Source: Enterobacterales bacterium | GTDB taxonomy: Bacteria > Pseudomonadota > Gammaproteobacteria > Enterobacterales > Enterobacteriaceae | Assembly: GCA_947478475.1 (NCBI GenBank) | Contig: CANJWD010000007.1 | Span: forward strand, 1 to 43,623 | Reading direction: 5' to 3' | DNA length: 43,623 nt | In this document: piece after piece, positions 5,237-37,327 of the stretch | Layout: every line of letters starts with the position of its first letter | How positions within the stretch are numbered: position 1 is the first letter of the stretch | Program-made: the position numbers and the translations under genes | Notes under the pieces: model-generated | What the model was told of the DNA's origin: nothing | The model's database searches: none | Seen by the model: the letters and a program-made list of their open reading frames with translations, nothing else

Positions 5237-7873
5237 ATGACAGATGTAACCGTAAAATCACTGGCAGAAGAAATTCATATTTCTGTTGCGCGCCTGGTAC
5301 AGCAATTTGCCGATGCCGGGATCAAAAAAACTGACGTTGACTCCGTTACCCAACAAGAAAAAGAAAAACTATTGGTATACCTGAACCATGAGCGTGGCGG
5401 AGCGCCTGATAAACTCATGTTACAGCGTAAAACACGTAGTACCCTGAGCATCCAAAGTACCGGCGGAAAAAGTAAGTCCGTGCAAATCGAGGTGCGCAAA
5501 AAACGCACTTATGTTAACAGCGATGTATCGAAGGCTGAACAGATAAAATTACAAGAAAAGGCAGAGAGTGAAGCCGCAGCGAAAAAAATTGCGGAAGAGA
5601 ATAGGGTGAAACAGGAAGCTGCCGAAAAAATCAGGCGCGCGGCTGCGGAAAAGGAAAAAATGCCCGGTCAGCAGCAAGCCGACGAAAAAACCAAAGCTGT
5701 ACAAAATGATAAAGCGCGCCGCGAAATTGAATCCGCTGAACTAAAACGCAAAGCAGAAGCAGAGGTATGCCGTAAGGTTGAAGAGGATGCCAAACGTGTT
5801 GCCGCAGAAGTTCGTAAAATGGCTGAGGAAAACGAGGGGAAATGGGCTGCGTCTGCCGCTGAAGTGCCTGAACCCACTGACTATCATGTTACTACTTCTC
5901 AACATGCGCGTGCCGCCGAAGATGAAAATGACGCTAAAGTAGAAGGCGATCGCCGGAGTCGCGTACGTGGTGGTAAAGTGACCCGCCAGAAAAAGGGTAA
6001 TAAACTCTCTGAATCTAAAGCTGATCGCGAAGAAGCACGTGCTGTGGGTCGTAAAACCAGACGTAAGCCAAGTGCTCTGCAACAAAGTTTCAATAAGCCA
6101 GTGATAGCGGTTAACCGTGATGTGGTGATTGGTGAAACAGTAACTGTTGCCGAACTGGCTAATAAAATGGCCGTTAAAGGTTCTCAGGTAATCAAAGCAA
6201 TGATGAAGCTGGGTGCCATGGCAACCATTAATCAGGTTATTGACCAGGAGACAGCACAGCTGGTTGCTGAGGAAATGGGGCACCGGGTTACGCTGCGTCG
6301 TGAAAACGAACTGGAAACTGCGTTGATGAGTGATCGCGATACCGGTGCCATGGCGGCTGCGGAGTCCCGCGCGCCCGTTGTGACGATTATGGGTCATGTT
6401 GATCACGGTAAGACTTCACTGCTGGACTACATCCGTTCGACTAAAGTGGCTGCAGGCGAAGCAGGCGGAATTACCCAACATATTGGTGCCTATCACGTTG
6501 AAACTGAGAATGGCATGGTCACTTTTTTGGATACTCCAGGACATGCCGCATTTACGTCCATGCGTGCCAGAGGAGCTCAGGCGACAGACATCGTCGTACT
6601 GGTTGTTGCCGCTGACGATGGTGTGATGCCACAAACCATCGAGGCTATCCAGCATGCCAAAGCGGCAAAAGTGCCGGTTGTCGTGGCGGTCAATAAAATT
6701 GACAAACCGGACGCTGATCCGGACAGAGTTAAAACGGAGCTGTCTCAGCATGGCATTATGCCAGAGGATTGGGGCGGAGAATCGCAGTTTATCCATGTTT
6801 CGGCAAAAGCAGGAACCGGTATTGATGAGCTGTTGCATGCCATTTTACTGCAAGCAGAAGTGCTGGAATTAAAAGCAGTGCGTAATGGTATGGCAAGCGG
6901 TGTGGTTATCGAATCTTTCCTGGATAAAGGCCGTGGCCCGGTTGCCACCGTTTTGGTTCAGGAGGGCACTCTGAACAAGGGTGATATTGTGCTCTGTGGC
7001 TTCGAGTATGGCCGTGTGCGCGCCATGCGTGATGAACTGGGTCGTGATATTTTCTCCGCAGGTCCATCCATCCCCGTTGAAATTCTTGGGCTGTCGAGTG
7101 TGCCAGTTGCTGGTGATGAAGTGACAGTCGTCCGTGATGAAAAGAAGGCCCGTGAGGTGGCTCTGTATCGTCAGGGTAAATTCCGCGACGTTAAGCTGGC
7201 CCGTCAGCAAAAATCCAAGCTGGAAAACATGTTTGCTAATATGGCTGAAGGCGAAGTATCTGAACTGAATATTGTTCTAAAGTCTGATGTACAGGGCTCG
7301 TGTGAGGCCATTTGTGACTCGCTGGAAAAACTGTCGACCGATGAAGTTAAAGTTAAAATTGTGGGTTCCGGTGTCGGTGGTATCACTGAAACTGATGCAA
7401 CGTTAGCTGCGGCATCCAATGCTATTATTCTCGGTTTTAATGTTCGTGCTGATGCTTCAGCCCGTCGGGTGGTTGAGTCAGACAGCCTGGATTTACGCTA
7501 CTATTCCGTTATCTACAACCTGATTGACGAAGTTAAACAGGCGATGAGCGGTATGCTGGCCCCAGAATATAAGCAGCAGATTCTTGGTCTGGCCCAGGTT
7601 CGTGATGTCTTTAAATCACCAAAATTTGCTGCGATTGCCGGTTGTATGGTGACTGAGGGTCTGATTAAACGCAGTAATCCAATCCGTGTATTACGCGATA
7701 ATGTGGTGATCTACGAAGGTGAGCTGGAATCGCTGCGCCGTTTTAAAGATGATGTCAGCGAGGTTCGCAGTGGCGTGGAATGCGGTATTGGCGTCAAGAA
7801 CTACAACGACGTGAGAGTGGGTGATACTATCGAAGTGTTCGAAATAATCGAGATAAAACGTACTATCGCTTAA
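5237..7873 (+). CDS. infB: Translation initiation factor IF-2
   Basis: IF-2 is the GTPase that brings fMet-tRNA to the 30S subunit and promotes subunit joining. The 878-residue protein begins with an IF2_N domain (about 1-50), followed by a long Lys/Glu/Ala-rich linker (about 85-290) and a second IF2_N domain (about 295-345). The G domain has GHVDHGKT (386-393), DTPGH and NKID. The C-terminal beta-barrels and fMet-tRNA-binding domain end in IEIKRTIA. Length is close to E. coli IF-2 (890). The stop codon lies inside a perfect 16-bp tandem repeat. Confidence 0.98.
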
Positions 7874-7888
7874 ACGTACTATCGCTTA
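7857..7888 (+). repeat. Perfect 16-bp tandem repeat over the infB stop
   Basis: AACGTACTATCGCTTA occurs at 7857-7872 and again at 7873-7888. The first copy encodes the end of IF-2; the second lies directly after the stop and repeats those codons as non-coding DNA. Confidence 0.9.
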
Positions 7889-7914
7889 ATAGTAAGATCC
7901 GCGTGTTTATCCAT

Positions 7915-7962: not shown

Positions 7963-8451
7963 ATGGCAAGAGAATTTAGTCGTACGCAGCGTGTTTCGCA
8001 AGAAATACAGAAAGAGGTCGCGATTATTTTGCAGCGAGAGCTGAAAGATCCACGTATTGGCATGGCAACTGTTTCCGGTGTAGAGCTTTCACGCGATTTA
8101 GTTTACGCCAAAATTTTCGTAACGTTCTTAAATATACTGTCTGAACCTGATGACCAGGAATCGATAAAAAAGGGTATTAAAGTTTTGCAGGATGCTTCAG
8201 GTTTTATCCGTACGCTATTAGGTAAAGCAATGCGCTTACGGATAGTGCCCGAATTGACCTTTGTCTATGACCGCTCATTGATCGAGGGCGTGAAAATGTC
8301 TCATTTGGTCACCACGGCGGTAAAAGATGATGTGCAACGCCATGTGACGGCAGAAAATAGTGCTGGTAACGATAATGCTGATAACAGTCACGCTGATAAC
8401 AGTCACGTTGATAACAGTCATGTTGATAACAGTCAAAGCAGGGAGAGCTAA
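7963..8451 (+). CDS. rbfA: 30S ribosome-binding factor RbfA
   Basis: RbfA is a KH-type assembly factor for the 30S subunit that acts on the 16S 5' helix region. The ATG at 7963 gives [11 protein letters not shown], which aligns with E. coli MAKEFGRPQRV; further in-frame sequence upstream is rejected because it runs through the G-rich hairpin. Conserved parts include [19 protein letters not shown], the block [16 protein letters not shown] and PELTFVYD. The 162-residue protein is about 30 longer than E. coli RbfA: its tail holds four tandem DNSHxD-type repeats from a 15-bp unit. The stop overlaps the truB ATG (TAATG), suggesting coupling. Confidence 0.95.
8380..8439 (+). repeat. Four 15-bp tandem repeats in the rbfA tail
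   Basis: Units beginning GATAACAGTCA lie at 8380, 8395, 8410 and 8425, differing in the last four or five bases. Being 15 bp they stay in frame and add the polar repeats [15 protein letters not shown] and DNSQS to the RbfA C-terminus. Confidence 0.9.
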
Positions 8452-11113: not shown

Positions 11114-11153
11114 AGATCAATCAGCTCCTTTAAAAAATGACGGCAGCACCCGC

Positions 11154-13114: not shown

Positions 13115-13602
13115 TCCACCCCATCCTGTTGTAAAAGTTCCTGTTGTAAAAGTTGTTGTAATTCTTCTTCCCCTGGCTGATAGATAGCCAGTCTGGCACT
13201 GGCCAGCAGTTTTCCGTCCTGACTAATCTCGCTGTCAAAACTGCCGAATTTATCATCCCGCATTAGCAGTATGACACGGATATCCAGTATACTGCCGGCG
13301 CAAAAAGTGGGCTGATGGCAGCACAAAGCCCGGGCGCCCAGTAACATACCCGGCCGGGGGCTGGCGCCCAGGGTCTGACGCTGGCGCCAGCCAAACCAGA
13401 CATCGACAGTTTGGGCCATCATCTCCAGTACGAACCAGCCGGGCAAGTTACCCGTCCGGTCAAGAAACGGTGCCAGAACCGAATCATTGCCAACTCGTAC
13501 CCGGCAGTGCGCCGACTCCTCCTTCACCTCTACGACTTCATCCAGCAGGAGCATCGGAGCCTGTTGTGGTAAGAGTGCGGCCACCGACCCATAATTATCC
13601 AT
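13111..13602 (-). CDS. apeP: Hotdog-fold dehydratase subunit ApeP
   Basis: ApeP is a FabZ/FabA-like hotdog protein that pairs with ApeI to dehydrate 3-hydroxyacyl-ACP in the APE cycle. The 163-residue protein has PMLLLDEVVEV, HCRVRV, the central segment NLPGWFVLEMMAQTVDVW and FGSFDSEI. The segment holds the conserved Glu but no hotdog His, which ApeI carries. The N-terminal LPQQAPM has Gln where the LPH motif of relatives usually has His. The C-terminal tail LQQLLQQELLQQ comes from a perfect 15-bp tandem duplication (13125-13154). It overlaps apeO by 8 nt and apeQ by 4 nt. Confidence 0.85.
   Translation of the reverse strand: MDNYGSVAALLPQQAPMLLLDEVVEVKEESAHCRVRVGNDSVLAPFLDRTGNLPGWFVLEMMAQTVDVWFGWRQRQTLGASPRPGMLLGARALCCHQPTFCAGSILDIRVILLMRDDKFGSFDSEISQDGKLLASARLAIYQPGEEELQQLLQQELLQQDGVE
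13125..13154 (-). repeat. Perfect 15-bp tandem repeat in the apeP tail
   Basis: CCTGTTGTAAAAGTT (plus-strand reading) lies at 13125-13139 and 13140-13154. A partial third copy, GTTGTAATT, follows. It is in frame and makes the LLQQE-type repeat at the ApeP C-terminus. Confidence 0.9.
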
Positions 13603-15365: not shown

Positions 15366-17761
15366 TTTTCTGTTCCATTTTTTTTCCCACTTTCTGTTCC
15401 ACTTTCTGTTCCACTTTCTTCTTTTTTTTCACTTTCTTTTCCGCCTGTAGCCTGCGGTGGTATGGCCAGGGGGGAGAGTAAAAACGCCGTGAAAATACCG
15501 CCAGAAAGTACAATACCGAAACTACTGATAGCCTGGGTGCTGCTGAAGACCAGCATACCCAGTGTTAGCAGGGTCGTGGCCATCGCCAGCACTATCGCCA
15601 GTAGTGATGTGAGCGGCACGGCCCGCGGATTACTAAAAAACAGCGAATAATTGATGCCAAGACCCAGTACCAGCACCAGAGCTAACAGAGAAAACAGGTT
15701 TAATGAATGGCCGCTGAAGGCCAGTATCGCCAGGGCAGAGCCCAAAGAGAGCAGGGAAGGTACCATACTCAGCAGGCCACGGCGCCAGCCAAGGCGAACG
15801 ACATAACTGCCGAAAATGGCAGCCACCGCCAGCAACAGTAATCCGCTCAGCATAGTGCGATAAAAGGCAAACGTTTTATCAAATACGGCCTTGCGGTCGA
15901 TCCACATCAGGCCAGGATATTCATCCGCCAGCTTCGCCAGCGCTGGCGCATTGCGTACACCATCCACCGGCACCAGCACTGCGCTCTGTCCGTCTGAGAG
16001 AGTCAGCCATAGCAAGCGCCAGCCCTCGCTGATGACTGACTGCTGCCATATCTCGGGGGTTACCGGCATCGGACTGAGATCAGGTGCCTTCGTGTGCATA
16101 CCAGCAGCCGCCAGGCGGGCTAGCACCGCAGGGGACGCGGTACGCAACAACGTTAAATCGGCCTGCTGACGCAGTAACGAAGAGAGCGGCAGCAGGCGGA
16201 AGGAACTCAGCCAGCCCTGGTGCTGAGCATCAGCAAGCCGGGGTGCCAGCTGCTCGAGACGTTGCAGAGTGCTCTGCGGGCTGGCGCCATAGACGGCAAA
16301 CCATTTCTGCTCAACACGCTGACCCGTCAGCGCAACAATGTGTCGTTCCTGTTGCAGGATCCCGGCAGGCAGATCCTGTAGCTGTGAAATATCATCACTG
16401 ATCGATAGCCGTGACAGACCCGCTACCGCAAAGAGTGTCACGGCGAGCGGCAGGCCAGTTCGCAAGGCGGTACTGTGCTGCCATGCAGACAACCAGCCTG
16501 CCATCAGCCTCTGCAGTGGCAGCGGTCGTACTGCTAATCGCCGCGTCAGACAGGGAAACCAGCACAGTACAGTCAGGCAGGCGGCGATCAATCCGGCGGC
16601 GGCGAATACTGCCAGCTGGCGCAGGCCTGGCAGCGGAGCGAGCAGCATAATCAGGTACGCGCCCAGCTGGGTACCAAGAGCCAGCAGCAGCGTTGGCAGC
16701 AGCTTATGCAGACTCTGCCCCGTACTGAGCTCGTTACCGTGCACCCTTCGTTCGGTGAGCCAGTACAGTGCATAGTCGGCAGAGATACCAACTATGCTGA
16801 TGCTCATGAGTAGCGTCATCAGGTGCAGTTCACCAAAAATCAGCAGCGTGGCAACAGTGCCCGCCAGTGCACCGATGCCTATCGATAACAGGCAGAGCAG
16901 TAGCGGATACAGTGAGCGGAAAATATAAAATATGAGCAACAGCACGCCGGACAGCGTTGCCGTGCCAAGTGTCGCAATATCATGTAGCGCCTGCTGACTG
17001 GCGTAATCACTGTAGAAAAGCGTACCACGTGTCAGCAGGCGTGCATCGGGCCAGCGCTGCTGCAGCGCTGTCTCCAGTATCCGCAGGCTGTGCACCAACT
17101 GACGAGTCTGCTGCATATTATCCGCAGCACCTGCTGAGGCACCGTGGATGACATACCAGCGCCGCCCTTGCTCATCCCGCGCCACCAGCCAGCCCCGTTC
17201 CATATGTAGCGCACTGCCCTGCTGCAATGCCAGCTGTGCGCTGCGGACCAGCAACAGCGGATCACGTGTCAGCTCCTGAGCACTAACGCCGGCAAATGCG
17301 GAATAGAGCTGTGCCACGACCCAGTCAGCCTGCTGCTGCTGGTTTTGCAGACGCCGTCGCGTTTGTGGATCGATCAGGCCGTTGCGGTGTTGCCAGTAAA
17401 ATTCGCCCCACTCCCGTTGCATGGCCTCCGTCATTGGCCCCTTAACATCGCTCAGGCCGGGCAAGGCCTGGAGTCTCTCCAGCCACCACTGCGCCACAGT
17501 GCTATCTGCTTCATTACCATCCGGACTATCCGGGCTCACCAGCCAGATAAGCTGGCTATCCAGCCGCTGCATGAATGCCTGCGTCAGTGCGGGCGGCATT
17601 TCCCCCATTGTTTGCTGGGGTAATAGTGCCAGCACGCTGCTGGTGAATGCGCTGCGCGGCAGCAGCCATAGCAGCGTCAGCAGTAGCATGATGCAAACTA
17701 GCAGCCAGCTAAGCCCCCACCTGCCGCGCTCAGAAAACAAAGCGCTTCTGTTCATCATCAC
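15362..17761 (-). CDS. apeM: MMPL/RND-type exporter ApeM
   Basis: This 799-residue inner-membrane protein of the MMPL family is proposed to export the aryl polyene lipid. The plan is one N-terminal helix (about 15-37), a large periplasmic loop, five helices (about 260-400), a second helix-loop (about 430-650) and five C-terminal helices, as in RND pumps. A motif with GISADYALYW-type residues lies in the first membrane block. The start may be GTG 17761 or ATG 17758/17755 (all in frame), overlapping apeL by about 30 nt. The C-terminal tail is a low-complexity ESGTESGTESG stretch from 12-bp repeats. Confidence 0.9.
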   Translation of the reverse strand: MMMNRSALFSERGRWGLSWLLVCIMLLLTLLWLLPRSAFTSSVLALLPQQTMGEMPPALTQAFMQRLDSQLIWLVSPDSPDGNEADSTVAQWWLERLQALPGLSDVKGPMTEAMQREWGEFYWQHRNGLIDPQTRRRLQNQQQQADWVVAQLYSAFAGVSAQELTRDPLLLVRSAQLALQQGSALHMERGWLVARDEQGRRWYVIHGASAGAADNMQQTRQLVHSLRILETALQQRWPDARLLTRGTLFYSDYASQQALHDIATLGTATLSGVLLLIFYIFRSLYPLLLCLLSIGIGALAGTVATLLIFGELHLMTLLMSISIVGISADYALYWLTERRVHGNELSTGQSLHKLLPTLLLALGTQLGAYLIMLLAPLPGLRQLAVFAAAGLIAACLTVLCWFPCLTRRLAVRPLPLQRLMAGWLSAWQHSTALRTGLPLAVTLFAVAGLSRLSISDDISQLQDLPAGILQQERHIVALTGQRVEQKWFAVYGASPQSTLQRLEQLAPRLADAQHQGWLSSFRLLPLSSLLRQQADLTLLRTASPAVLARLAAAGMHTKAPDLSPMPVTPEIWQQSVISEGWRLLWLTLSDGQSAVLVPVDGVRNAPALAKLADEYPGLMWIDRKAVFDKTFAFYRTMLSGLLLLAVAAIFGSYVVRLGWRRGLLSMVPSLLSLGSALAILAFSGHSLNLFSLLALVLVLGLGINYSLFFSNPRAVPLTSLLAIVLAMATTLLTLGMLVFSSTQAISSFGIVLSGGIFTAFLLSPLAIPPQATGGKESEKKEESGTESGTESGKKNGTEK
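15391..15414 (-). repeat. 12-bp tandem repeat in the apeM tail
   Basis: TTTCTGTTCCAC (plus-strand reading) is repeated exactly at 15391-15402 and 15403-15414, with a near copy at 15367-15378. It encodes the Gly-Thr-Glu-Ser repeats at the ApeM C-terminus. Confidence 0.85.
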
Positions 17762-18347: not shown

Positions 18348-18778
18348 GGCTGTACTCCGAGACGTTCAAATAAAATCGGCGGGCTGACCAGGCACATCTC
18401 TCTTGTCTCTGCTTTCACGGCAACCTGAATGGTATAGCCGCTGGTGGTGCGTTTGGCACTCTGAGCGTCGAAAATCTGGTAGTTAATCCGCAGTCGATTC
18501 TCATATTCTGTCAGGCTGGCCTGCACACGAATAGGCTGTTCAAACACCAGAGCCGCCCGGTATCTGACGCGGGTGTCTACGATAGGCCACAGATAACCTG
18601 AAACCTGCATTGCACGGTAACCGTAGTTGAACTTACCGAGCAGCGCTTCACGTGCCAGTTCGAAATAGCGAAAATAATTACCATGCCATACCACACCCAT
18701 GGCATCGACATCGTGGAATGGGATGCTTAGTGCCACTTCTGCGCTAAATTCTGCGCTAAATTTGTGATCGGTATTCAA
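18344..18778 (-). CDS. apeK: Acyl-CoA/ACP thioesterase ApeK (4HBT family)
   Basis: This 144-residue hotdog thioesterase carries the 4HBT signature DVDAMGVVWHGNYFRYFE, with the likely catalytic Asp25. It may release or edit acyl chains in APE synthesis. The N-terminus reads FSAEFSAEV, caused by a perfect 12-bp tandem duplication (18737-18760) right after the start. It overlaps apeL by 4 nt and begins 7 nt after the apeJ stop. The catalytic region is intact. Confidence 0.88.
   Translation of the reverse strand: MNTDHKFSAEFSAEVALSIPFHDVDAMGVVWHGNYFRYFELAREALLGKFNYGYRAMQVSGYLWPIVDTRVRYRAALVFEQPIRVQASLTEYENRLRINYQIFDAQSAKRTTSGYTIQVAVKAETREMCLVSPPILFERLGVQP
18737..18760 (-). repeat. Perfect 12-bp tandem repeat at the apeK 5' end
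   Basis: TTCTGCGCTAAA (plus-strand reading) occurs at 18737-18748 and 18749-18760. It is in frame and encodes a duplicated F-S-A-E. Confidence 0.9.
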
Positions 18779-18785
18779 TCAACTA

Positions 18786-20869: not shown

Positions 20870-22268
20870 AAAACAGCTCCTGTAATTGAGCGCAGGTGCG
20901 CTTACCCTGACTGTTAAGCGGCATCTGTGTGACGATGCGCCAGTAGCGCGGCAATGCCACTGGCTCCAGCCACTGACGTAATGTCTGGCGCCACGCGCGT
21001 GTCAGCATCGCTTCGCCACGGTGACCTTGCGGCACTGTCGTGGCAGCATCCAGCACGATCACCGCGCCGATATAGAGACGCCCGCTCCGGGATAGCGTCA
21101 GTGCTGCGGCTTCTGCAACCCCGCTGAGCTGCATGAGGCGGTGTTCAACTTCGCTTAGTGAAATACGTTGTTCTTCAATTTTTATGATCTGATCCTGACG
21201 TCCGCACAGATGAAAACGTCCCTCTCCTGGCGAAAAATCCAGCCGGTCATCCAGTAGCAGCCCTTCGGGTTCTGGGATCAATGGTGAATGTACGCGCCAG
21301 ATTTTTTCTTTTTCATCACTAAGGTCTTTATGGTCTTTGCTAAAGCGTACACCTGGGAAGGGCTGCCAGGGTTCATTATTACGGCTACAGTTGCGCCATG
21401 CCAGCACACCGGTTTCGCTGCTGCCATAAACTTCGTTTAGCCGTACGCCGTAGTACTGTTCTGCCTGGCAGGCGGCATTCCAGGGCAGGAGTCCGCCTGC
21501 CGACAGGACCAGTTCGCAGTGAAAAGCGGGCAAAGCGATATCCAGCCGCCGCAAAAACGCCGGGCTGCTGATGAATACGTAGCGCTTTTCTCTGCTATGG
21601 GCGGCAATATGGGCGGCAAGCTGCTCGGGAAATTGCGTCAGGGCAGAGGAAAATGACAGACCAAGCGCCATCGGCAGCATAATGCGGAAGGTCAGACCAT
21701 AAAGGTGCTGATGGCTAACCGAGGAGAGCAGATGGCAGCCCGCCAGCCGTTTCCCCCATAATGCTGCCAGCCACGCGATTTCATGATCCAGACTTGCTAC
21801 AGGTTTCACCACTTCACGTGGCTGCCCGCGCGATCCTGAAGTAAACAGCACCACCGTCGCATCAGCAGATAGCACAGGCAATAAAGGGGTTTCCGTTGCC
21901 GCCATGGGCTGCTGGCCGGGCCCCACGATCAGGCAGGGGAAGTCAAGTGTCACGAATTTATCACTGAGCAGGGCATCAAATCGAGACCGCTGTTCCTGCA
22001 GCAGTGATTCGCGACTGTGGCCTGGTATTACTGCCGTTTTCGCACTGTGCAGCACTGCCAGCAGTGCCACGGTAAACCAGTAACTGTCATCAAAACAGAG
22101 CGCCCAGCGCTGCTGAGTTGTTGCCTGTAGCCGCTGGCAGAGTGCTATGACCTGCTGGCGCATCTCACCAAGGTAGTAGTGCCGCTCGTCCCCACAGGCG
22201 ACCAGTGTTTGATCTGCGCGGGAGTTATCCAGCCACTGTGCCAGCGGCAGTACCTGGATGTCGTTCAT
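20856..22268 (-). CDS. apeH: AMP-dependent acyl-ACP ligase ApeH
   Basis: This 470-residue adenylating enzyme of the ANL superfamily is expected to activate the aryl starter acid with ATP and load it on an APE carrier protein. Motifs are the P-loop FTSGSRGQPREV (142-153), YGSSETG, and the C-terminal hinge GRQDQIIKIEEQRISLSEVE. I start it at ATG 22268, which overlaps the apeG stop as ATGA; the frame stays open further upstream but that would lie inside apeG. The 5' flank holds an 18-bp tandem duplication. Confidence 0.9.
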   Translation of the reverse strand: MNDIQVLPLAQWLDNSRADQTLVACGDERHYYLGEMRQQVIALCQRLQATTQQRWALCFDDSYWFTVALLAVLHSAKTAVIPGHSRESLLQEQRSRFDALLSDKFVTLDFPCLIVGPGQQPMAATETPLLPVLSADATVVLFTSGSRGQPREVVKPVASLDHEIAWLAALWGKRLAGCHLLSSVSHQHLYGLTFRIMLPMALGLSFSSALTQFPEQLAAHIAAHSREKRYVFISSPAFLRRLDIALPAFHCELVLSAGGLLPWNAACQAEQYYGVRLNEVYGSSETGVLAWRNCSRNNEPWQPFPGVRFSKDHKDLSDEKEKIWRVHSPLIPEPEGLLLDDRLDFSPGEGRFHLCGRQDQIIKIEEQRISLSEVEHRLMQLSGVAEAAALTLSRSGRLYIGAVIVLDAATTVPQGHRGEAMLTRAWRQTLRQWLEPVALPRYWRIVTQMPLNSQGKRTCAQLQELFYAAD

Positions 22269-23155: not shown

Positions 23156-23159
23156 CCGG

Positions 23160-23432
23160 TCAGATAGCCCGCAGCTGGCGCTGCAATGTAATAAATGCCG
23201 CCAAAGTGGCGATCGAGTAAAAATGCTGCCGCATTTCCTCCGTCTCTGCCGACAGTACCAGCCCATAGCGATTCTTTACCATCAACCCAAGCTCCAGGGC
23301 ATCAATGGAGTCAAGCCCCAGACCCTCTCCAAATAGTGGCGCATGGGTGTCTATGTCATCGGCATCCATCCCCTCCAGATTGAGTGTGCTGATGATCATG
23401 TTTTTTATCTCAAGGTGTAACTCTTCCATCAT
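23160..23432 (-). CDS. apeE: Acyl carrier protein ApeE
   Basis: This 90-residue acyl carrier protein has phosphopantetheine site Ser42 in GLGLDSIDALELGL, followed by MVKNRYGLVL. Together with ApeF it gives the two carriers of characterised APE synthases. The start codon overlaps the apeD stop (ATGA); ATG 23429 is an in-frame alternative. No phosphopantetheinyl transferase gene is seen in the window, so activation must come from elsewhere. Confidence 0.9.
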   Translation of the reverse strand: MMEELHLEIKNMIISTLNLEGMDADDIDTHAPLFGEGLGLDSIDALELGLMVKNRYGLVLSAETEEMRQHFYSIATLAAFITLQRQLRAI

Positions 23433-24292: not shown

Positions 24293-25011
24293 CAGCGCCG
24301 CCAGCACCAGTTCAGGCGTTCACCGGTTACCCGGAATTCAGAATGTCCGGCCAGCCAGCCATGTAAAAATTGCAGCCCTTGCGGTAATTCTGGCTCAGTT
24401 TGTAAGGTAACGGGCTCCACAGTGCAGTGCAGCGCTGCCCTGGTATCCAGCAAAAATGCCACTGCCCAGGAGTAATCTGGCATTGCTGGTGGCAGCCAGG
24501 GCTGATAAAAATCCGGAATGGCGCCGTCGAAGTCGACCAGCAGTACCCGATGATACCCATTGCTCTGCAATGCATGGACTTCGCACAGTGCCTGCTGGAA
24601 GGTATCAATGCCGGCTGATAACGATGTAGCGGGCACCGATATTTTTGCTGCGATGGCCAGATTGCCTGCTGCTGAATTATGCACTGACATCACAAAATCT
24701 GTCGGTGACAGGCTATTTTGATGCGCCAGCTGCGTGAGTAGCTGAAAATTACTTTCGAGTTCACCGTGGCGGCTGCAAAATACCAGCGCATCCACCTGCT
24801 GGCGGCGCACCAGCGCCAGACCACAGCCAGCCGCCAGACGGCTACCTGTATTCAGACGACGTGCTATCATCGCCGGTAACGGGACACAACCTGTTAGCTT
24901 TGCCTTGCGGTCGATCCGTGCCGGTTGCCGGGCCCACTGCTGCCATTCAGCCGTCGTTGTTAGCGCTGGGGCGACCGCCTGCCAGTCAACAATGTTAAAG
25001 GCCAGTTTCAT
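24292..25011 (-). CDS. apeC: Chain-length factor-like ketosynthase ApeC
   Basis: This 239-residue short ketosynthase-like protein (Ketoacyl-synt_2 type) lacks the active-site Cys: the nucleophile region reads SVHNSAAGNLAI (109-120). This is normal for the chain-length factor partner of ApeO. Upstream, a 13-bp tandem duplication (25015-25040) lies directly before the start and alters the ribosome-binding region (GCTGAGAG). It is the first gene of the compact apeC-R run, 405 nt downstream of apeB. Confidence 0.87.
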   Translation of the reverse strand: MKLAFNIVDWQAVAPALTTTAEWQQWARQPARIDRKAKLTGCVPLPAMIARRLNTGSRLAAGCGLALVRRQQVDALVFCSRHGELESNFQLLTQLAHQNSLSPTDFVMSVHNSAAGNLAIAAKISVPATSLSAGIDTFQQALCEVHALQSNGYHRVLLVDFDGAIPDFYQPWLPPAMPDYSWAVAFLLDTRAALHCTVEPVTLQTEPELPQGLQFLHGWLAGHSEFRVTGERLNWCWRR

Positions 25012-25138: not shown

Positions 25139-25325
25139 ATTTTTGGTGAATAACGGCGTTTTTTTTATGGGTTATAGCGTAGTGGCGTCAGAGATGGCCG
25201 ATTACTTCACTGCAATGGCAGACAGTTTTAGTTGAATATCGCGGTCAAGATTGTTTACCCAACGGTTATAATTACGATGAATATGGCCATTTTCTGCCAT
25301 TAAATTGTGGCTGTTCACATAATTA
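25139..25325 (-). repeat. Duplicated block A, copy 1 (apeA 3' end and downstream)
   Basis: This matches 27059-27245 over 187 bp with three mismatches by eye. It covers the last 41 codons of apeA plus about 60 bp of downstream DNA. It belongs to a larger tandem duplication. Confidence 0.9.
25202..25325 (-). pseudogene. apeA remnant (C-terminal end only)
   Basis: The final 41 codons of the lipoprotein gene apeA, ending in the same TAA, remain here with one silent and one missense change (Gln to His). At 25323-25325 the sequence jumps directly to DNA that lies upstream of apeA in the other copy, so about 300 bp holding the signal peptide and most of the gene are deleted. The junction shares TTA with both parents. 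The region 25012-25416 has no intact gene: it holds this remnant, the direct repeat and AT-rich DNA. Confidence 0.85.
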
Positions 25326-25587
25326 TTTGGCCAACAGGCCCGGACAGCGGAAATTTGTGGTCACAGAATGTATCACAGCTTGCCAGTAGCATCCGGCTTT
25401 TTATCGATGTTTGGGGTTATAAGAGCGTTTTTTTACAGATGAGCAGCGTATGACCAATGCCAATGTTGTCAATCTGTTGCTCTACGGTAAATCCTGCCAG
25501 CGTCAGGCACCGCAGAAAATTTTCAGCGCGGTAGAAACGGCTATTGCCGTTAGCCATAGCGGTGAAATAGAGCGACAACGCATTGAT
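25323..25587 (-). repeat. Duplicated block B, copy 1 (apeB 3' end and downstream)
   Basis: This matches 27547-27807 with about ten differences and a 4-nt indel by eye. It includes the last 57 codons of apeB. Here the block continues into an intact apeB; in the other copy it breaks off. Confidence 0.9.
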
Positions 25588-26533: not shown

Positions 26534-27058
26534 CAGTCAGATTCAGCGCTTCAGTGCTTCAGTGCATAGAGCACTGCCATCAGCGCCTGGCCAGACGCCA
26601 CCATTCCCGCACGGCCACGACACCGAGCCCCAGTAGAATAAAAAATTCTTGCGTAGGTACCGAATGCGAAAAATACTTGTAATCGCAGACAAAAAGATTA
26701 GTCCACAAACAATTCACCCCAAAGCCACGCAGCACGGCATCATTCTGTCGCCAGCCATACCAGACAGCCAACATTGCCACAACAGAAAAGAGGGCAGCCC
26801 ACTGGTATTGCAGAATTTTTTGCCATGGATCCAGCGTGTCATTACCGGAAATATCGGAAACAGACAGAACCCACAATACGATAAACATATAAAGCAGTCC
26901 GGGGACTTTAGTCTGTGGTAACACCGATAACAGCCGCCGGAGGAGGCCTGAAGCAGTGGCGCGAGGTCTCTTCTGCTGGCCAAGTATCCCCCCTGCGGCT
27001 AATAGCGTGCCAAAAAAAATATATTGTAATAGCTCATTCATACTCAAAAAATAGCTTC
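26534..27058 (-). repeat. Duplicated block D, copy 2 (DUF2157 gene 3' half)
   Basis: This resembles 27808-28331, from the shared CAGTCRGATTCAGCG at the 3' flank to the shared AAAAAATAGCTTC at the 5' side. It is far more diverged than blocks A and B: roughly a quarter of positions differ by eye. Confidence 0.75.
26580..27041 (-). pseudogene. Truncated DUF2157 membrane protein (C-terminal half)
   Basis: This 153-residue frame from ATG 27041 (a TTG at 27047 is also in frame) encodes about four membrane helices. It aligns with the C-terminal half of the 357-residue DUF2157 protein at 27835-28908: FFGTLLAAGGIL with FFGMVLAAAGIF, LLYMFIVLWVLS with LLYLFIALWILS, and AVLRGFGVNCLWTNL with AVLRGFGLTFLLINL. 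The N-terminal half is missing because the junction with the apeA block falls at 27058/27059. It may still be expressed as a small membrane protein. Lies between apeA and apeB. Confidence 0.75.
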
Positions 27059-27245
27059 ATTTTTGGTGAATAACGGCGTTTTTTTTATGGGTTATAGCGT
27101 AGTGGCGTAAGAGATGGCCGATTACTTCACTGCAATGGCAGACAGTTTTAGTTGGATATCGCGGTCAAGATTGTTTACCCAACGGTTATAATTACGATGA
27201 ATCTGGCCATTTTCTGCCATTAAATTGTGGCTGTTCACATAATTA
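27059..27245 (-). repeat. Duplicated block A, copy 2
   Basis: Partner of 25139-25325 (three mismatches). In this copy the block continues into the intact apeA gene. Confidence 0.9.
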
Positions 27246-27529: not shown

Positions 27530-27546
27530 GGACAGCCCTCGCATAC

Positions 27547-27807
27547 TTATTTTGCCAACAGGCCCGGACAGAATTTGTGGTCACAGAATGTATCACAGCT
27601 TGCCAGTAGCATCCGGCCTTTTATCGATGTTTGGGGTTATAAGGGCGTTTTTTTACAGATGAGCAGCCTATGACCAATGCCAATGTTGTCAAGCTGTTGC
27701 TCTACGGTAAATCCTGCCAGCATAAGGCACCGCAGAAAATCTTCAGCGTGGTAGAAACGGCTATTGCCGTTAGCCATAGCGGTGAAATAGAGTGACAACG
27801 CATTGAT
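27547..27807 (-). repeat. Duplicated block B, copy 2
   Basis: Partner of 25323-25587. The match ends at 27807/25587, where this copy switches to DNA downstream of the DUF2157 gene. Confidence 0.9.
27637..27807 (-). pseudogene. apeB remnant (last 57 codons)
   Basis: The 3' end of apeB, with the same TAA at 27637-27639, survives between the DUF2157 gene and apeA. The 5' four-fifths of the gene, including the SAM-binding motif, are gone. The upstream junction (27807/27808) joins it to the 3' flank of the DUF2157 gene. Confidence 0.85.
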
Positions 27808-27834: not shown

Positions 27835-28908
27835 TTATCCACGCTGGCCCAGATGCCACAGTGTTTCCGCTTTTCTTCCCACGGCCCATAAAGTTAGCGC
27901 CAGTACCGTAAAGAATACTGTTTCGGGTATTGCATCCCAGAAATATTCGAAATAGCGTGTATAGAGATTAATCAGCAAAAAAGTCAGCCCAAAGCCACGC
28001 AGCACGGCATCGTCGTGTCGCAGGCCGTACCAGATAGCCGCTATCGCCACAACAGCAAAGAGAACAGACCAGTGAAAAAGCTCGTATTGCCGGATTTTTT
28101 GCCATTGATCCAGCTCACTGTAATTACCGAAAATAGACAGAATCCACAATGCAATAAACAGATAAAGCAGTCCGATGACCTTAGTTTGTGGTGACATCGA
28201 TAACAGCCGCTGCTGAAACCCTGACGCGCTGGCCACGGCGCTATTTTGCTGGCTGAAGATCCCTGCTGCGGCTAACACCATGCCAAAAAAAACAAAGCGC
28301 AGCGGATAGTTCATACCCAAAAAATAGCTTCCGTATCCAGAACGATACCCTGTTTCAGCGCCCATCCAGCTACCGAGAGAGAGTAGCGCAAATACCCAAA
28401 TCAGTTTTGAGGGCAAGCATACTCCTAATAGCCCGTAGCATATTGCTGCTATTAAAAATAGCACTGAGTAGTGACCAGAACCGTTATCAAATGCCACACC
28501 GAAAAAGAAGAGAGATGTGGCCAGTGCAAGCACACCGAGAAAAAAAACAGCCTCGTTGCTATAGAAGCGATGCGGGTAACGCTGCCGCAGCATCAGGCCG
28601 TAGTTAAAAATCAGGGCAGCAAGCGCCACAAAAATGCTGCCGGACATCCCAGGAGCTGACATAAAGAAATCCTTGAGATAGCTGGTTATAGCGGTGGACA
28701 GCGCGATAAGCAGACAAAAAACAGCGACAATAAAGGCATAGCGCGCCGTGCGTTGCCAGTCAAAGGTGGCGACAGCTATGGAACCTGCAAGTCTGGTGGC
28801 TGTTTGTTCATCAACGATGCCATTTTGGCGCCACTGCTTGATAACCTTGCTAACTACCCTATGCTGTTTGCCAGGCAGCGTCATGGTAATCGATTTTTGT
28901 TCTGGCAT
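27835..28908 (-). CDS. DUF2157 multi-pass membrane protein
   Basis: This 357-residue protein has an N-terminal cytoplasmic part (about 1-55) with KQWRQNGIVDEQTATRLAGSI, typical of DUF2157, then roughly nine to ten membrane helices. The function of the family is unknown. A strong Shine-Dalgarno (AGGAGAAA) precedes the ATG at 28908. It lies between the valS stop and the ape genes and was partly duplicated together with apeA and apeB. Whether it serves the APE pathway is open. Confidence 0.8.
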   Translation of the reverse strand: MPEQKSITMTLPGKQHRVVSKVIKQWRQNGIVDEQTATRLAGSIAVATFDWQRTARYAFIVAVFCLLIALSTAITSYLKDFFMSAPGMSGSIFVALAALIFNYGLMLRQRYPHRFYSNEAVFFLGVLALATSLFFFGVAFDNGSGHYSVLFLIAAICYGLLGVCLPSKLIWVFALLSLGSWMGAETGYRSGYGSYFLGMNYPLRFVFFGMVLAAAGIFSQQNSAVASASGFQQRLLSMSPQTKVIGLLYLFIALWILSIFGNYSELDQWQKIRQYELFHWSVLFAVVAIAAIWYGLRHDDAVLRGFGLTFLLINLYTRYFEYFWDAIPETVFFTVLALTLWAVGRKAETLWHLGQRG

Positions 28909-32318: not shown

Positions 32319-32358
32319 AATCGTCACCGCTAATCGTCATCATTAATCGTCATCACTG
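32319..32358 (-). repeat. Three 13-bp tandem repeats over the pepA stop
   Basis: TAATCGTCACCGC, TAATCGTCATCAT and TAATCGTCATCAC (plus-strand reading) run from about 32319 to 32358. The outermost copy holds the pepA codons Asp-Asp-Asp-stop; the others fill the pepA-holC spacer. Confidence 0.85.
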
Positions 32359-33854
32359 CTCCCGGCACGGTTTAATAAAAATTGTGCCAGCAGGGCGACC
32401 GGGCGACCGGTAGCGCCTTTATTGTCGCCGCTGCGCCATGCTGTCCCGGCGATGTCGAGATGCGCCCAGTGATATTTCGCGGTAAAACGTGACAAAAAAC
32501 ACCCCGCCGTGATGGTCCCGGCGGCGCGTCCGCCGATGTTCGCCATATCAGCAAAATTGGAGTCGAGCTGTTCGTTATACTCATCCGCCAGTGGTAGCCG
32601 CCAGGCACGGTCACCCGCCTGCTCAGAGGCGGTGATCAGTTCATGAGCTAATGGATTGTGATTTGACATTAAGCCGCTGATATGGTGACCGAGAGCAATC
32701 ACGCAGGCGCCCGTTAAGGTGGCAATATCAATCACCAGTTCCGGGTCAAAACGCTCAACGTAGGTCAGGGCATCACACAATATCAGACGACCTTCAGCAT
32801 CAGTATTCAGGACTTCAATGGTCTGGCCCGAAAGACTGGTGACGATATCCCCTGGGCGATAGGCATGGCCCCCTGGCATATTTTCACAACCGGCGATGAC
32901 GCCAGTAACGTTCAGTGGCAACTGCAATCTGGCTACTACCGACATCACACCGAAAACGCAGGCCGCGCCACACATGTCATATTTCATCTCATCCATATTT
33001 GCGCCGGGTTTGAGGGAAATACCGCCGGAATCAAATGTGACACCCTTGCCCACCAGTACAATCGGTTTAACGTCCGGATTTGGGTTACCCCTGTATTCGA
33101 TAATGGACATTAATGATTCGTTTTGAGAACCCTGACCAACAGCCAGCCAGGCATTCATCCCGAGCTCTTTCATCTGCTGTTCACCCAGCACGCGTACAGA
33201 CATGTGCGTGCTGAATGCCGCGGCCAGTTGATGGGCTTGCGCCGCCAGCCAGGCGGCATTACAGATGTTGGATGGCATATTCGCTAAATCTTTAGCACTC
33301 TTAATGCCCTCGGAAATAGCCATACCGTGCCGGACAGCCTGCTCACCACAGGTTAATTCGCGGCGGGTTGGTACGTTAAAGACCATCTTGCGTAGCGGGC
33401 GACGCTGCTCGATTTTATTGCTTTTAAGGCGGTCAAACAGGTAGAGTGCGTCGTTAATAGTTTCTATCGCCTGGCGTATTTTCCAGTAAATAGTGCGGCC
33501 CTTGACATGCAGTTCGGTCAAAAAACAGGTGGCTTCCATTGATCCGCTGTCATTAAGAGCACGGATAGTGTGCTGAAGAATGTGTCTGTACTGACGTTCA
33601 TCGAGCTCACGCCCTTTGCCACACCCCATCAACAAAATGCGTTCTGAGGGAATGCCGGGGACCTGGTGCAACAGAAGCGTTTGCCCAATTTTTCCTTCCA
33701 GTGCCCCGCGCCGCAATAACGCGCTGATGTGACCACCACTGATTTTATCGATTTGCTCAGCACCAGGGGAGAGACGGCGAGGTTCGAAAACACCGACAAC
33801 GATACAGGCGCTGCGCTGTTTCTCCGGGCTACCACTTTTTACACTGAACTCCAT
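32343..33854 (-). CDS. pepA: Leucyl aminopeptidase PepA
   Basis: PepA is a hexameric two-metal M17 aminopeptidase. In E. coli it also binds DNA, in carAB control and Xer recombination. The 503-residue protein equals E. coli PepA in length and is highly similar from [16 protein letters not shown] onward. The active-site block includes [22 protein letters not shown] and [19 protein letters not shown] precedes the ATG. It diverges from lptF, and its stop lies in a 13-bp repeat array. Confidence 0.98.
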
Positions 33855-34014: not shown

Positions 34015-35106
34015 GTGACTGCCATTAGATATTTAGTATGGGAAATCACTAAAAGCCAGACGGCGATTCTGCTGGTCCTGATGCTTATCTTTTTCAGCCA
34101 GAGACTGGTACGGATAGTAGCAGCCGCCGCAGATGGCGATATTCCAGCCAGTTTAGTGCTCTCACTGCTGGGTTTTGGTATGCCCGCGATGGCGCAACTG
34201 ATTTTACCGTTAAGTTTATTTCTTGGAATATTAATGGCCCTGGGTAAATTGTATACGGAAAGTGAAATCACCGCTATGCAGGCCTGCGGTTTAGGAAAAA
34301 AAACACTTGTTATTTCAGTGCTCATTCTGGCGATCATTACCTCTGTGGTTGCCGCAGTCAACGCTATCTGGTTTGGCCCCTGGTCTGCTAAACATCAGGA
34401 TAAAATACTGGCTGAAGTAAAATCCAATCCCTCTCTTGCCGCCATGGTTGAAGGGCAGTTCCAGGTCTACCAGAATGGTAGCCTGGTACTGTTTATTGGT
34501 GATATCAGCAAGCAACAGGCTAGCCGCTTCTTTTTGGCGCAATTGAGGCCTGATGGTAATCAGCGTCCTTCGATAGTAGTGGCTGATCAAGGAAAGATGC
34601 AGGAACGTGCTGATGGCTCGAAAGTGATACTCTTCAATAGCGGGACCCGCTATGAAGGGAGTGCGTTATTGCGTGATTTTCGCATCACTGATTTTACTGA
34701 TTACAAGGCAGTACTCAGTCATCAGAAAGTGACTATCGAGAGCAGTGATGCTGCACATATGTCGATGAGTCAGCTGCGCAGTGGCACGCAACCGGAGTTT
34801 CTTGTTGAGCTCCACTGGCGCCTGACGCTGATTTTTTCGGTCATCATTATGGCGCTTCTGGTGGTACCGCTTAGTGCGGTAAATCCTCGTCAGGGGCGAA
34901 TATTAAGCATGCTTCCGGCAATATTGCTCTATTTGATTTTTTTCCTGACGCAAAGTACGCTGCGCTCCCGCGCTAGCGCGGGTACGTTTGCGCCTTTAGT
35001 CTGGATGTGGGTGGTTAACACGGCTTATCTGACGCTGGCTATTGTGCTTAACCTGTGGGATAGCCCGGCGGTCCGTAAGTTGTGTGCACGTTGCAGAAGG
35101 TGGTAA
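34015..35106 (+). CDS. lptF: LPS export permease LptF
   Basis: LptF and LptG form the inner-membrane permease of the LptB2FGC LPS extractor. The 363-residue protein has membrane helices at about 15-37, 60-80 and 100-120, a periplasmic jellyroll domain (about 130-255) and three C-terminal helices. Conserved are GDIPASLVLSLLGFGMP, LGKLYTESEITAMQACGL, TRYEGSALLRDFRITDF and the helix VVPLSAVNPRQGRILSMLPA. The start is GTG 34015, giving MTAIRYLVWE, aligned with E. coli. lptG follows after 3 nt. Confidence 0.96.
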   Translation: MTAIRYLVWEITKSQTAILLVLMLIFFSQRLVRIVAAAADGDIPASLVLSLLGFGMPAMAQLILPLSLFLGILMALGKLYTESEITAMQACGLGKKTLVISVLILAIITSVVAAVNAIWFGPWSAKHQDKILAEVKSNPSLAAMVEGQFQVYQNGSLVLFIGDISKQQASRFFLAQLRPDGNQRPSIVVADQGKMQERADGSKVILFNSGTRYEGSALLRDFRITDFTDYKAVLSHQKVTIESSDAAHMSMSQLRSGTQPEFLVELHWRLTLIFSVIIMALLVVPLSAVNPRQGRILSMLPAILLYLIFFLTQSTLRSRASAGTFAPLVWMWVVNTAYLTLAIVLNLWDSPAVRKLCARCRRW

Positions 35107-35109: not shown

Positions 35110-36222
35110 ATGTTGTTCGGTATCCTGGATCGTTATATCGGACGGAGCATTTTCGCTACCATCATGATGACATTATTCATGCTGGTGTCGCTCTCAGGTG
35201 TCATTAAATTTGTTGACCAGTTACGTAAAGTAGGCGATGGCGATTACTCAGTCTTTGCTGCGGCTGTCTATACTTTGTTCAGTGCGCCACAAGATATCCA
35301 GATCTTTTTCCCGATGGCGGTACTGCTAGGGGCGTTATTAGGTCTTGGTACTCTGGCCAGTCACAGTGAATTGGTGGCAATGCAGGCCGCGGGTTTTACC
35401 CGCATACAGGTTGCCATCTCAGTGATAAAAATAGCCGTCCCCTTGGCGTTACTGGCTATGGCGATGAGTGAATGGGTTGCTCCGGTAAGCGAAAATATGG
35501 CGCGTAATTACCGGGCACAAAAAATATACGGGGGCTCGTTCCTTTCGACACAAAGTGGTTTACGGGCGCAAAGTGGTTTATGGGCGACACAAAGTGGTTT
35601 ATGGGCTAAAGATGGACTGGATTTTATCTATATTGAACATATCCAGAGCGATAATGAACTTTCCGGTGTCAATATTTATCGTTTTGATCAACGCAATCGC
35701 CTGCAATCCGTGAGCCATGCTGCTACGGCAATTTTTGAAGATAACCGGTGGCAGCTATTTCAGATTGATGAATCAGATTTAAGTGATCCGGCGCAGATAA
35801 ATGGCACGCAGCGCTTAATGGCGGAGTGGCGGACGAATCTGACCCCCGACAAACTGGGGAGCGTTGTAATGAGCCCTGAGGCGCTGTCGGTGAGTCGATT
35901 ACATAGCTATGCTAACTATCTGGAGCAAAGCGGGCAGGAATCGGGTCGTTACCGGTTAACGATGTGGAACAAACTGCTGTCACCGCTCACCGTCACTGTG
36001 ATGATGCTAATGGCGCTGTCGTTTATTTTTGGGCCATTACGCACGGTGCCTATGGGAGTGCGTGTATTAACTGGCATTGGCTGTGGTTTTATTTTTTATG
36101 TGCTGGATCAAATTATTGGGCCACTGAGCCTGGTTTACGGTATGCCGCCGGCCATGGGTGCGCTGTTGCCCAGCCTTCTGTTCCTGCTGATCAGTATTTA
36201 TCTGTTATTGAAACGCCGATAA
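35110..36222 (+). CDS. lptG: LPS export permease LptG
   Basis: LptG is the partner of LptF in LPS extraction. The 370-residue protein keeps the family plan: FGILDRYIGRSIFATIMM start, KFVDQLRKVGDGDY, FTRIQVAISV, the jellyroll, and the C-terminal block FIFGPLRTVPMGVRV. It is longer than E. coli LptG (360). An 18-21 bp unit is present three times (35551-35610), giving QSGLRA-QSGLWAT-QSGLWAK where E. coli has a single QQGLWAK. This adds 13 residues at the start of the periplasmic domain. Confidence 0.96.
   Translation: MLFGILDRYIGRSIFATIMMTLFMLVSLSGVIKFVDQLRKVGDGDYSVFAAAVYTLFSAPQDIQIFFPMAVLLGALLGLGTLASHSELVAMQAAGFTRIQVAISVIKIAVPLALLAMAMSEWVAPVSENMARNYRAQKIYGGSFLSTQSGLRAQSGLWATQSGLWAKDGLDFIYIEHIQSDNELSGVNIYRFDQRNRLQSVSHAATAIFEDNRWQLFQIDESDLSDPAQINGTQRLMAEWRTNLTPDKLGSVVMSPEALSVSRLHSYANYLEQSGQESGRYRLTMWNKLLSPLTVTVMMLMALSFIFGPLRTVPMGVRVLTGIGCGFIFYVLDQIIGPLSLVYGMPPAMGALLPSLLFLLISIYLLLKRR
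35551..35610 (+). repeat. In-frame triplication inside lptG
   Basis: Units beginning CAAAGTGGTTTA lie at 35551 (18 bp), 35569 (21 bp) and 35590 (21 bp). They are in frame, encode repeats of QSGL(R/W)A, and insert 13 residues in the LptG periplasmic domain. Confidence 0.92.
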
Positions 36223-36226
36223 CAGG

Positions 36227-37327
36227 CTATGTATTCACCCGCACATAGCCACCAGGTACCGCTATTATCCGCCCCGCAAGCTCCAGATCGAGCAACTTAA
36301 TGACGACATCAGATACCGGCTGACCGGCACGTTCCGCGATAATATCAACAGATGTTACCTCGTTGTCTATGTTAGCCAGCAGGTCAGAAAAGGGTGATTC
36401 CGCGTCGCTTTCCTGGGGAGCACTGTTTTGCTGCGCTATGTTTTGCTGCGCTAATGGAAACCATCGGAGCGAGCTGCTAACCTGTTCAACAATATCCTTT
36501 GGGCTGGTGGCAAGTGAAGCACCTTGCTGTATAAGCCAGTGAACACCCTCGCTCATCGGGCTGCCTAGAGGCCCCGGTAGCGCGAAGACATCCCTGCCCT
36601 GATCCAGAGCATGACGTACTGTAATAAGAGAACCGCTTTTCAGCGTTGCTTCCACAACTACAACAGCCAGACTTAATCCGCTGATGATCCGGTTGCGCCG
36701 CGGGAAATGTGCGGGCATCGGTAACGCTGTTGTTAAAAATTCAGAGACCAGAGCACCGCCCTGGGCCTGAATTTTTTCGGCTAATTGCCGGTGTTGCCGG
36801 GGATAAATGTTTTCAAGACCACTTCCCAACACTGCAATGGTTTTCCCTTGTGCATCAATGGCTGCCTGATGACAAATACCGTCAATGCCCAGTGCAAGTC
36901 CGCTGGTAATAGTGAAACCGCAGCGCACCAGTCCGGAAGAAAAATATTGCCCCCAGTGTTCACCGTAATAAGTGAATTTGCGGCTACCAACCAGAGCAAT
37001 TTGTGGGTGATGAAGTGTACGGCAATCTCCGGCAATAAATAGCAAGAGTGGTGCAAAAGCGATCTGTTTTAGTAAAGGGGGATAATCAGGGTCACTATAA
37101 ACGACCATGCGATGAGAAGGGCGACTCAGCCACATCAGAGCGGACGATATGTGACGCAAATCGGCGTGCAGAAACTCTGCGCACTGCTGAGGGTTTAGCC
37201 CGCTGGCGAGCAGTGCATCAAAGTGGTATTCCCCACAGGCGATAAGCCGTTCAGTTATCGCGCTGGCTTTTCTTGCACCCAGACGGCGAACCCGACTTAT
37301 TCGTAACCATAATTCCGCTAATTCCAT
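36227..37327 (-). CDS. dprA: DNA processing protein DprA (Smf)
   Basis: DprA is a Rossmann-fold single-strand DNA binding protein that loads RecA in transformation; in enterics its role is less clear. The sequence has VGSRKFTYYGE, TSGLALGIDGICHQAA, VLGSGLENIYP, FPRRNRIISGLS and a C-terminal winged-helix domain. I use ATG 37327 (366 residues), matching the E. coli N-terminus; an upstream in-frame TTG at 37357 is possible. A perfect 15-bp duplication makes the IAQQN repeat in the linker (36424-36453). It diverges from def, as in E. coli. Confidence 0.92.
   Translation of the reverse strand: MELAELWLRISRVRRLGARKASAITERLIACGEYHFDALLASGLNPQQCAEFLHADLRHISSALMWLSRPSHRMVVYSDPDYPPLLKQIAFAPLLLFIAGDCRTLHHPQIALVGSRKFTYYGEHWGQYFSSGLVRCGFTITSGLALGIDGICHQAAIDAQGKTIAVLGSGLENIYPRQHRQLAEKIQAQGGALVSEFLTTALPMPAHFPRRNRIISGLSLAVVVVEATLKSGSLITVRHALDQGRDVFALPGPLGSPMSEGVHWLIQQGASLATSPKDIVEQVSSSLRWFPLAQQNIAQQNSAPQESDAESPFSDLLANIDNEVTSVDIIAERAGQPVSDVVIKLLDLELAGRIIAVPGGYVRVNT
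36424..36453 (-). repeat. Perfect 15-bp tandem repeat in dprA
   Basis: TGTTTTGCTGCGCTA lies at 36424-36438 and 36439-36453 (plus-strand reading). It is in frame and encodes the repeated IAQQN in the DprA linker. Confidence 0.9.

Follow-up and report, generated by a model that had tools for sequence, protein, structure and literature searches.

In Portiera, a whitefly symbiont, loss of dnaQ goes together with genome rearrangement, repeats and large intergenic regions, according to the accessible parts of the report (PMC7821994). For B. tabaci Portiera, which has no dnaQ, Table 1 of that report counts 111 tandem repeats over 357 kb, against 10 in 281 kb where dnaQ is present. The same table gives 3 tandem repeats for S. 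simplex (dnaQ pseudogene), 11 for Uzinura (no dnaQ) and 31 for P. mori (dnaQ present), so that the link between dnaQ and tandem repeats is mixed. In yeast, rad27 (FEN1) mutants acquire insertions that turn ABA into ABABA, with A of 1–21 bp and B of 1–91 bp (excerpts of PMC5677150). In the open-licence literature, as far as its accessible text goes, we found no description of a burst of in-frame duplications of 10–18 bp, and the nearest published case found is dnaQ-less Portiera (PMC7821994).

Here we analyze a stretch of 43,623 nucleotides (contig CANJWD010000007.1 of assembly GCA_947478475.1; hereafter, the window) from an Enterobacterales bacterium which is probably a symbiont, as suggested by a small genome that contains broken genes and mobile elements. 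An earlier note on this DNA had pointed to lptG, whose product carries three QSGL(R/W)A units where E. coli LptG has one, and both the sequence and the LptG chains of the PDB bear this out. The note had treated the insertion as a feature of LptG. This view is not supported, since the same class of in-frame duplication occurs genome-wide, MurE, Der, SucA and SucB included. The LptG repeat alone is ordinary; the interest lies in the duplication process, in its 13–14 bp size and in its possible cause.

Results

The lptG locus

The features of the locus are as follows (window coordinates).

32343..33854, minus strand: pepA, leucyl aminopeptidase, divergent neighbour (NF002072, 967.3 bits)
34015..35106, plus strand: lptF, partner permease, upstream of lptG (TIGR04407, 348.3 bits)
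35110..36222, plus strand: lptG, an LPS export permease of 370 aa that carries the 13-residue insertion (ORF; TIGR04408; PDB 6mit_G, 6mhu_G)
35551..35610, plus strand: repeat block QSGLRA-QSGLWAT-QSGLWAK, residues 148–167, QSGLRAQSGLWATQSGLWAK
35551..35568, plus strand: unit 1, QSGLRA, 18 nt
35569..35589, plus strand: unit 2, QSGLWAT, 18 nt plus ACA
35590..35607, plus strand: unit 3, QSGLWA, 18 nt, running on into the conserved KDG

The product was identified as LptG by profile search (TIGR04408, 427.7 bits; cut-off 240). The three 18-mers begin at 35551, 35569 and 35590; neighbouring units differ at one position and the outer pair at two, and since differences are limited to 1–2 of 18 bases the copies are recent. 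TRF reports an 18/21-bp unit in 2.9–3.0 copies, with scores of 82–94. Thirteen residues (39 nt), the length that had been given to the repeat insertion, is indeed the net gain, but the repeat unit itself measures 6–7 residues (18 and 21 nt).

At window positions 36222–36227, a convergent dprA lies 4 bp past lptG, and the ORFs after it resemble def, fmt and rsmB. As lptG and these genes are far apart in E. coli, the adjacency of lptG and dprA marks a rearrangement junction. Opposite pepA, positions 33102–33296 (plus strand) match the Rfam family Ysr276, an antisense Yersinia sRNA, with 111.8 bits; this match possibly reflects mere conservation of the pepA sequence.

We compared the repeat with 109 loci of other genomes. 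They comprise the top 80 among 259 relatives (genome_contigs) and the top 29 among the 51 matching genomes of a second collection of 59, whose relatives include no same-genus genome; some genomes are counted twice among the 109 (L001 and L083). None of the 109 loci has a second unit. Wide occurrence in the family, which the earlier note had named as a finding that would count against its reading, is not seen among the loci compared. Opposite the insertion the alignment gap is of 13 residues in nearly all loci, of 12 in L099 and L106, and split in L105. A single unit is also present in the E. coli and Enterobacter cloacae LptG chains of the PDB. At the level of sequence it is confirmed that the repeat is real and, among the loci compared, found in this lineage only.

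Position of the insertion in the LptG protein

A first AlphaFold2 model of LptG, built from 19 sequences, was too poor for use (pTM 0.31). In the model obtained from 50 homologues only the jellyroll is usable (mean pLDDT 55.8, pTM 0.45): residue blocks 171–240 reach pLDDT values of 76–85, and the membrane part is weak. The model shows membrane helices, at low confidence, around a periplasmic jellyroll. Among PDB structures it matches 6mit_G best (E 1.6e-30, TM 0.75; 64% identity in the structural alignment). Transmembrane helix 3 (TM3) is modelled as far as residue 140, and the first strand begins at residue 164. Nowhere in the model is pLDDT lower than in residues 141–160 (27–28), which hold the extra residues 148–160. 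The predicted structure, weak as it is, agrees with the placement of the insertion just before the jellyroll, and we consider that the insertion probably lengthens a flexible linker between TM3 and the jellyroll. The accompanying statement that this jellyroll passes LPS to LptC/LptA is loose; in the accessible text of PMC6744409, the structures connect the periplasmic domain of LptC to that of LptF, and a role of LptG is speculation only.

Residues K34, R136, F67/Y320, Y257/Y271, R301, I163, W204 and L206, at which mutation is reported as lethal or severe in the part of PMC6744409 available, are kept in this LptG (mapped by hand). Compared with the protein studied there, V209 is replaced by I, K40 by R and K62 by Q; the same text reports less growth for a V209 mutant and no harm from K62E (PMC6744409). 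With an intact ORF and the reported essential residues in place, it is plausible that the transporter works with the insertion.

Tandem repeats across the genome

The genome is a draft assembly of 1,629,196 bases in 100 contigs. We counted exact tandem repeats of period at least 10 in its 18 largest contigs (603,623 bases, 37% of the genome; GC about 49%) and obtained 116, i.e., 19.2 per 100 kb. The LptG repeat, being inexact, is not one of them. The window alone has 8 exact repeats and 36 TRF rows, and a further 240 kb of the genome has 39 exact repeats. Those of the window are the following.

7856..7889: period 16, spanning the 3′ end of infB
8377..8407, plus strand: period 15, in rbfA
13124..13154, minus strand: period 15, in an ApeP-like dehydratase ORF
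15387..15419, minus strand: period 12, in an MMPL-family ORF
18737..18762, minus strand: period 12, in a thioesterase-like ORF, close to its N-terminus; the sole aligned relative shows no gap
21596..21619, minus strand: period 12, in an AMP-binding ORF; two relatives are without 4 residues
25015..25040: period 13, outside ORFs
36424..36453, minus strand: period 15, in dprA

Window positions 9389–25011 hold ApeP-like dehydratase, ketoacyl synthase, AMP-binding, glycosyltransferase and MMPL ORFs, all kept in a genome of 1.63 Mb; this cluster resembles aryl polyene clusters. Segments 25139–25587, 26695–27245, 27539–27807 and 27965–28331 have copies elsewhere in the examined sequence, and of the ORFs between 25139 and 28331 one is methyltransferase-like and another bears a weak resemblance to DUF2157.

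In ten relatives (G024, G025, G016, G032, G035, G004, G026, G034, G043 and G020) only 7 exact repeats were counted in 470,320 bases, which corresponds to a ratio of 12.9 (p 4e-21); eleven reduced-genome relatives have 10 in 380,494 bases (ratio 7.3). When the sample was replaced by first-order random sequence, two such versions yielded 0 and 1 exact repeats, against 116 observed. Four AT-rich reduced relatives (G029, G008, G013 and G015) have 26 in 267,185 bases, or 9.7 per 100 kb. One of these, G015 (20% GC), is denser than the genome studied here, with 10 exact repeats in 40,000 bases; its shuffled versions gave 1, 6 and 4 under a looser rule (a run of 10, not a period of 10). When arrays were counted by TRF score, densities were 27.7 per 100 kb here, 27.5 in G013 and 82.5 in G015, and the ten relatives had 15 arrays in 470,320 bases. 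AT-rich reduced relatives thus come near or above the repeat density of this genome, which counts against its uniqueness.

As 115 distinct unit sequences were found among the 116 repeats, no dispersed element is involved and a dispersed repeat family is ruled out. Three of the 116 are the longer 24- and 48-bp repeats (GPEVTASARPEV) of a 410-aa ORF at L120:16436-16707, which perhaps belong to a different class.

Reading frame and repeat size

Only ORFs of at least 100 codons were used for the frame test, and 23 repeats at ORF edges were set aside. The period is divisible by three in 43 of the 48 repeats inside ORFs, against 11 of the 45 outside (Fisher p 8e-11), and exact repeats are scarcer inside ORFs (9.2 per 100 kb) than outside (53.9). 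Inside ORFs the dominant periods are 12 and 15. Outside, periods peak at 13 bp (14 cases) and 14 bp (13 cases), with 2 cases at 11 bp, 3 at 12 bp and none at 19–25 bp; the small sizes 6, 8 and 9 are also above chance there (38, 7 and 7 cases, against 16.2, 1.4 and 0.2 expected). The duplication process thus ignores genes, and frameshifts are removed by selection.

A relative could be aligned at the site for 6 of the 43 in-frame ORF repeats, the other 37 being without one. At five of the six sites this genome is longer at the repeat, by 4 residues in the AMP-binding ORF, 11 in MurE, 8 in Der (where the alignment gap lies beside the repeat, not on it), 15 in SucB and 5 in SucA; the sixth site, near an N-terminus, aligned without a gap. 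The gain relative to other genomes is established for LptG and these five genes, as are the repeats, their excess and the frame filter. In PolA (965 aa; G000:C75, L143:1477-4371) a repeat run, FPTEFPTEFPTEFPAEFSAEFSAE, lies between the 5′-nuclease domains and the 3′-5′ exonuclease-like domain, which itself has NIETFNTEIFNTA close to its start.

Flanks and ends of the repeat units

The flanking sequence shared by the 101 repeats of fewer than three exact copies is of 0 nt in 34 cases, 1 nt in 16, 2 nt in 17 and at least 3 nt in 34, this last class being inflated by decayed third copies; about 57, 28, 11 and 5 would be expected without homology. Homology, or decayed third copies, contributes to the duplications but is not required: 50 of the 101 share 0–1 nt, and direct repeats are therefore unnecessary in many cases. 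Three or more exact copies are present in 15 of the 116 repeats.

There is a tendency for units to have a T-rich start and an A-rich end (z 5.1–6.2, with random windows nearby as the reference; 0.1–1.4 for the reverse combination). The end signal tends to be one-sided, with a Spearman coefficient of −0.32 (p 0.02; 50 units) and of −0.28, −0.18 and −0.22 (p 0.10, 0.14 and 0.06) at other cut-offs; the A-rich end was noticed before testing, so that the signal is post hoc, and one of the four correlation tests falls below 0.05. A one-sided signal is what would be expected if one unit end were the 3′ end of a nascent strand, and we treat it as a lead only. The start and end of the units pair no more than shuffled sequences do, and a hairpin-driven origin was discarded; a leading/lagging bias was likewise discarded, there being no link with the GC-skew strand (11:11, 11:10, flat 7:3).

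Repair and replication genes

The mutS gene is in two pieces.

G000:C34:1-849 (L144): mutS piece
G000:C95:1-981 (L145): mutS piece

The N-part ends near residue 267 in multicopy sequence. The C-part begins at residue 607, directly after the end of a DDE_3-type transposase, and positions 1–14 of MutS_V are missing. A family search of the assembly did not find residues 268–606. Hence mutS is interrupted, and loss of mutS or mutL is what defines a mismatch-repair mutator; mutL is an intact ORF. It shares with uvrD, rep, recD, exonuclease I and polA a reading frame without interruption over roughly the length usual in the family. PolA retains both 5′-nuclease domains (PF02739, PF01367), which speaks against the loss of a flap 5′-nuclease of FEN1/rad27 type. 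The recA gene is split across two contig ends (G000:C83:1-567 and C22:20939-21264) with about 25 residues between, probably by an assembly gap.

At E up to 1, the assembly gave no match to dnaQ (TIGR01406) other than RNase T, and rnhA (PF00075) was not found in it either. All 148 other genomes drawn from the family, one of about 200 kb among them, match dnaQ at 1.9e-49 or better; in the dnaQ survey, 4 of 149 genomes, this one included, had no match over the cut-off. In G016, rnhA adjoins dnaQ and yafS is the next gene. Here yafS lies at the start of contig C4 (G000:C4:1-860, L115), where bases 15–163 are multicopy sequence and rnhA is absent. Such a junction fits a mobile-element deletion of rnhA-dnaQ; the loss itself is not claimed, and, the smallest contig being of 3,468 bases, a short rnhA-dnaQ contig may be missing from the assembly.

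Discussion

We judge it likely that the LptG insertion is one product of a genome-wide tandem duplication process, filtered for reading frame and tolerated in a linker. A single ancestral segment coding for TQSGLWA would have been duplicated twice in tandem, by 21 and by 18 bp; presumably a 21-bp duplication of ACA-CAA-AGT-GGT-TTA-TGG-GC(G/T) came first and an 18-bp duplication within its first copy followed. The process would create tandem duplications, mostly of 10–18 bp, throughout a reduced Enterobacterales genome. Purifying selection would remove those that break the frame, so that the survivors in genes are mainly of 12, 15 and 18 bp (some of 21 and 24), and the surviving insertions would sit where the protein tolerates extra residues, in LptG probably the flexible linker. 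In all likelihood the copy in LptG is nearly neutral and reached fixation through drift. We infer that the source is misalignment of DNA strands at replication, with broken mutS and perhaps other repair losses. MutS loss is not known to yield duplications of 10–18 bp, and the size peak at 13–14 bp outside ORFs is sharper than plain slippage suggests, which counts against this explanation. So do the many cases in which direct repeats are unneeded, the repeat densities of the AT-rich G013 and G015, both of which have dnaQ, and a sample drawn from the largest contigs.

An adaptive change of LptG, in which the extra units would alter the hinge between TM3 and jellyroll and be selected in a host-restricted lineage, would suit near-identical units in an essential protein. 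The density of like insertions in unrelated genes accounts for the one in LptG, however, and the linker at this site is modelled with low confidence and is probably flexible; we hold adaptation to be very improbable, and reject any that is specific to LptG, the duplication class being genome-wide. An artefact of assembly or sequencing is the least probable reading of all, even for a draft in 100 contigs: the frame filter argues against it, as an artefact would not respect frame (43/48 inside ORFs, 11/45 outside), and the LptG copies carry point differences. Footprints of mobile elements, either target-site duplications that outlasted the excised element or the result of filling in and joining staggered cuts, would explain the narrow size peak and the many cases in which flanking homology is unneeded, and multicopy sequences do occur at contig ends. 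Against them stand the 15 of 116 repeats with at least three exact copies and an end signal that is unpaired within the unit and tends to be one-sided. No Ku was found either, though of the 14 genomes used as a control for that search a single one scored over the cut-off. Such footprints seem to us quite unlikely.

Within the preferred explanation, a genome-wide duplication process filtered for frame, one specific cause is possible though doubtful: with the loss of dnaQ (proofreading) and/or rnhA (RNase HI), misaligned ends or primer-length flaps would be kept and give rise to short duplications, as they would in Portiera without dnaQ or in rad27 yeast. Neither gene was found in the assembly, dnaQ is matched in all 148 other genomes drawn from the family, and yafS, which adjoins rnhA in relatives, here meets multicopy sequence where its contig ends. 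The A-rich tendency at one unit end (z 5.1–6.2) points the same way, as do, in the accessible text of the two reports, the repeats that accompany dnaQ loss in Portiera (PMC7821994) and the insertions of rad27 yeast, RNA primers being of 7–14 nt (PMC5677150). On the other side, a short rnhA-dnaQ contig may be missing below the smallest contig of 3,468 bases, the available Table 1 of PMC7821994 shows a mixed link to tandem repeats, PolA has both 5′-nuclease domains, no link with GC-skew strand appears, and the A-rich signal was chosen after looking. The fuller proposal of a natural mutator we regard as unlikely: here, in addition to the breakage of mutS, a mobile-element deletion would have removed the adjacent rnhA-dnaQ pair from a genome that, unlike dnaQ-less Portiera, stays GC-balanced and gene-rich, and primer-length duplications (13–14 bp) would have been selected for frame into linkers of LptG, MurE and Der.

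A size-specific duplication signature whose density is some 13-fold that of the ten relatives, and in which selection shows as a three-base filter, would be a natural record of long-term defective replication or repair and of the loops at which essential proteins tolerate insertions. If the rnhA-dnaQ loss were true, the cause could be tested in E. coli K-12, and the genome would be a second, gene-rich case beside Portiera.

When compared with known systems, this LptG resembles the Enterobacterales LptG (TIGR04408; 6mit_G, 6mhu_G, 5l75_G) in fold, in the residues of lethal mutants, in the order pepA-lptF-lptG and, but for the insertion, in length; it differs by 13 extra residues in the TM3-jellyroll linker. 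As short in-frame tandem repeats in coding sequence, the repeats of the genome recall bacterial intragenic minisatellites or VNTRs, from which they are set apart by a density some 13-fold that of the ten relatives, by copy numbers that mostly stay below three, and by units that nearly all differ. Short direct duplications gained across the genome are shared with rad27 yeast, as excerpted from PMC5677150, but those described here are mostly of 10–18 bp and often without A, and the 5′-nuclease domains of PolA are present. With Portiera, in the accessible parts of PMC7821994, the genome has in common that it is a reduced symbiont genome with many repeats, those of Portiera being tied to the loss of replication/repair genes. 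Portiera genomes are of about 280–412 kb with 284–308 genes, and the repeats of the unstable lineages are mostly in intergenic regions or pseudogenes (PMC7821994). Unlike Portiera, the genome studied here is of 1.63 Mb with about 49% GC in the sample, has kept mutL, its dnaQ loss being unproven, and carries many in-frame repeats in housekeeping genes.
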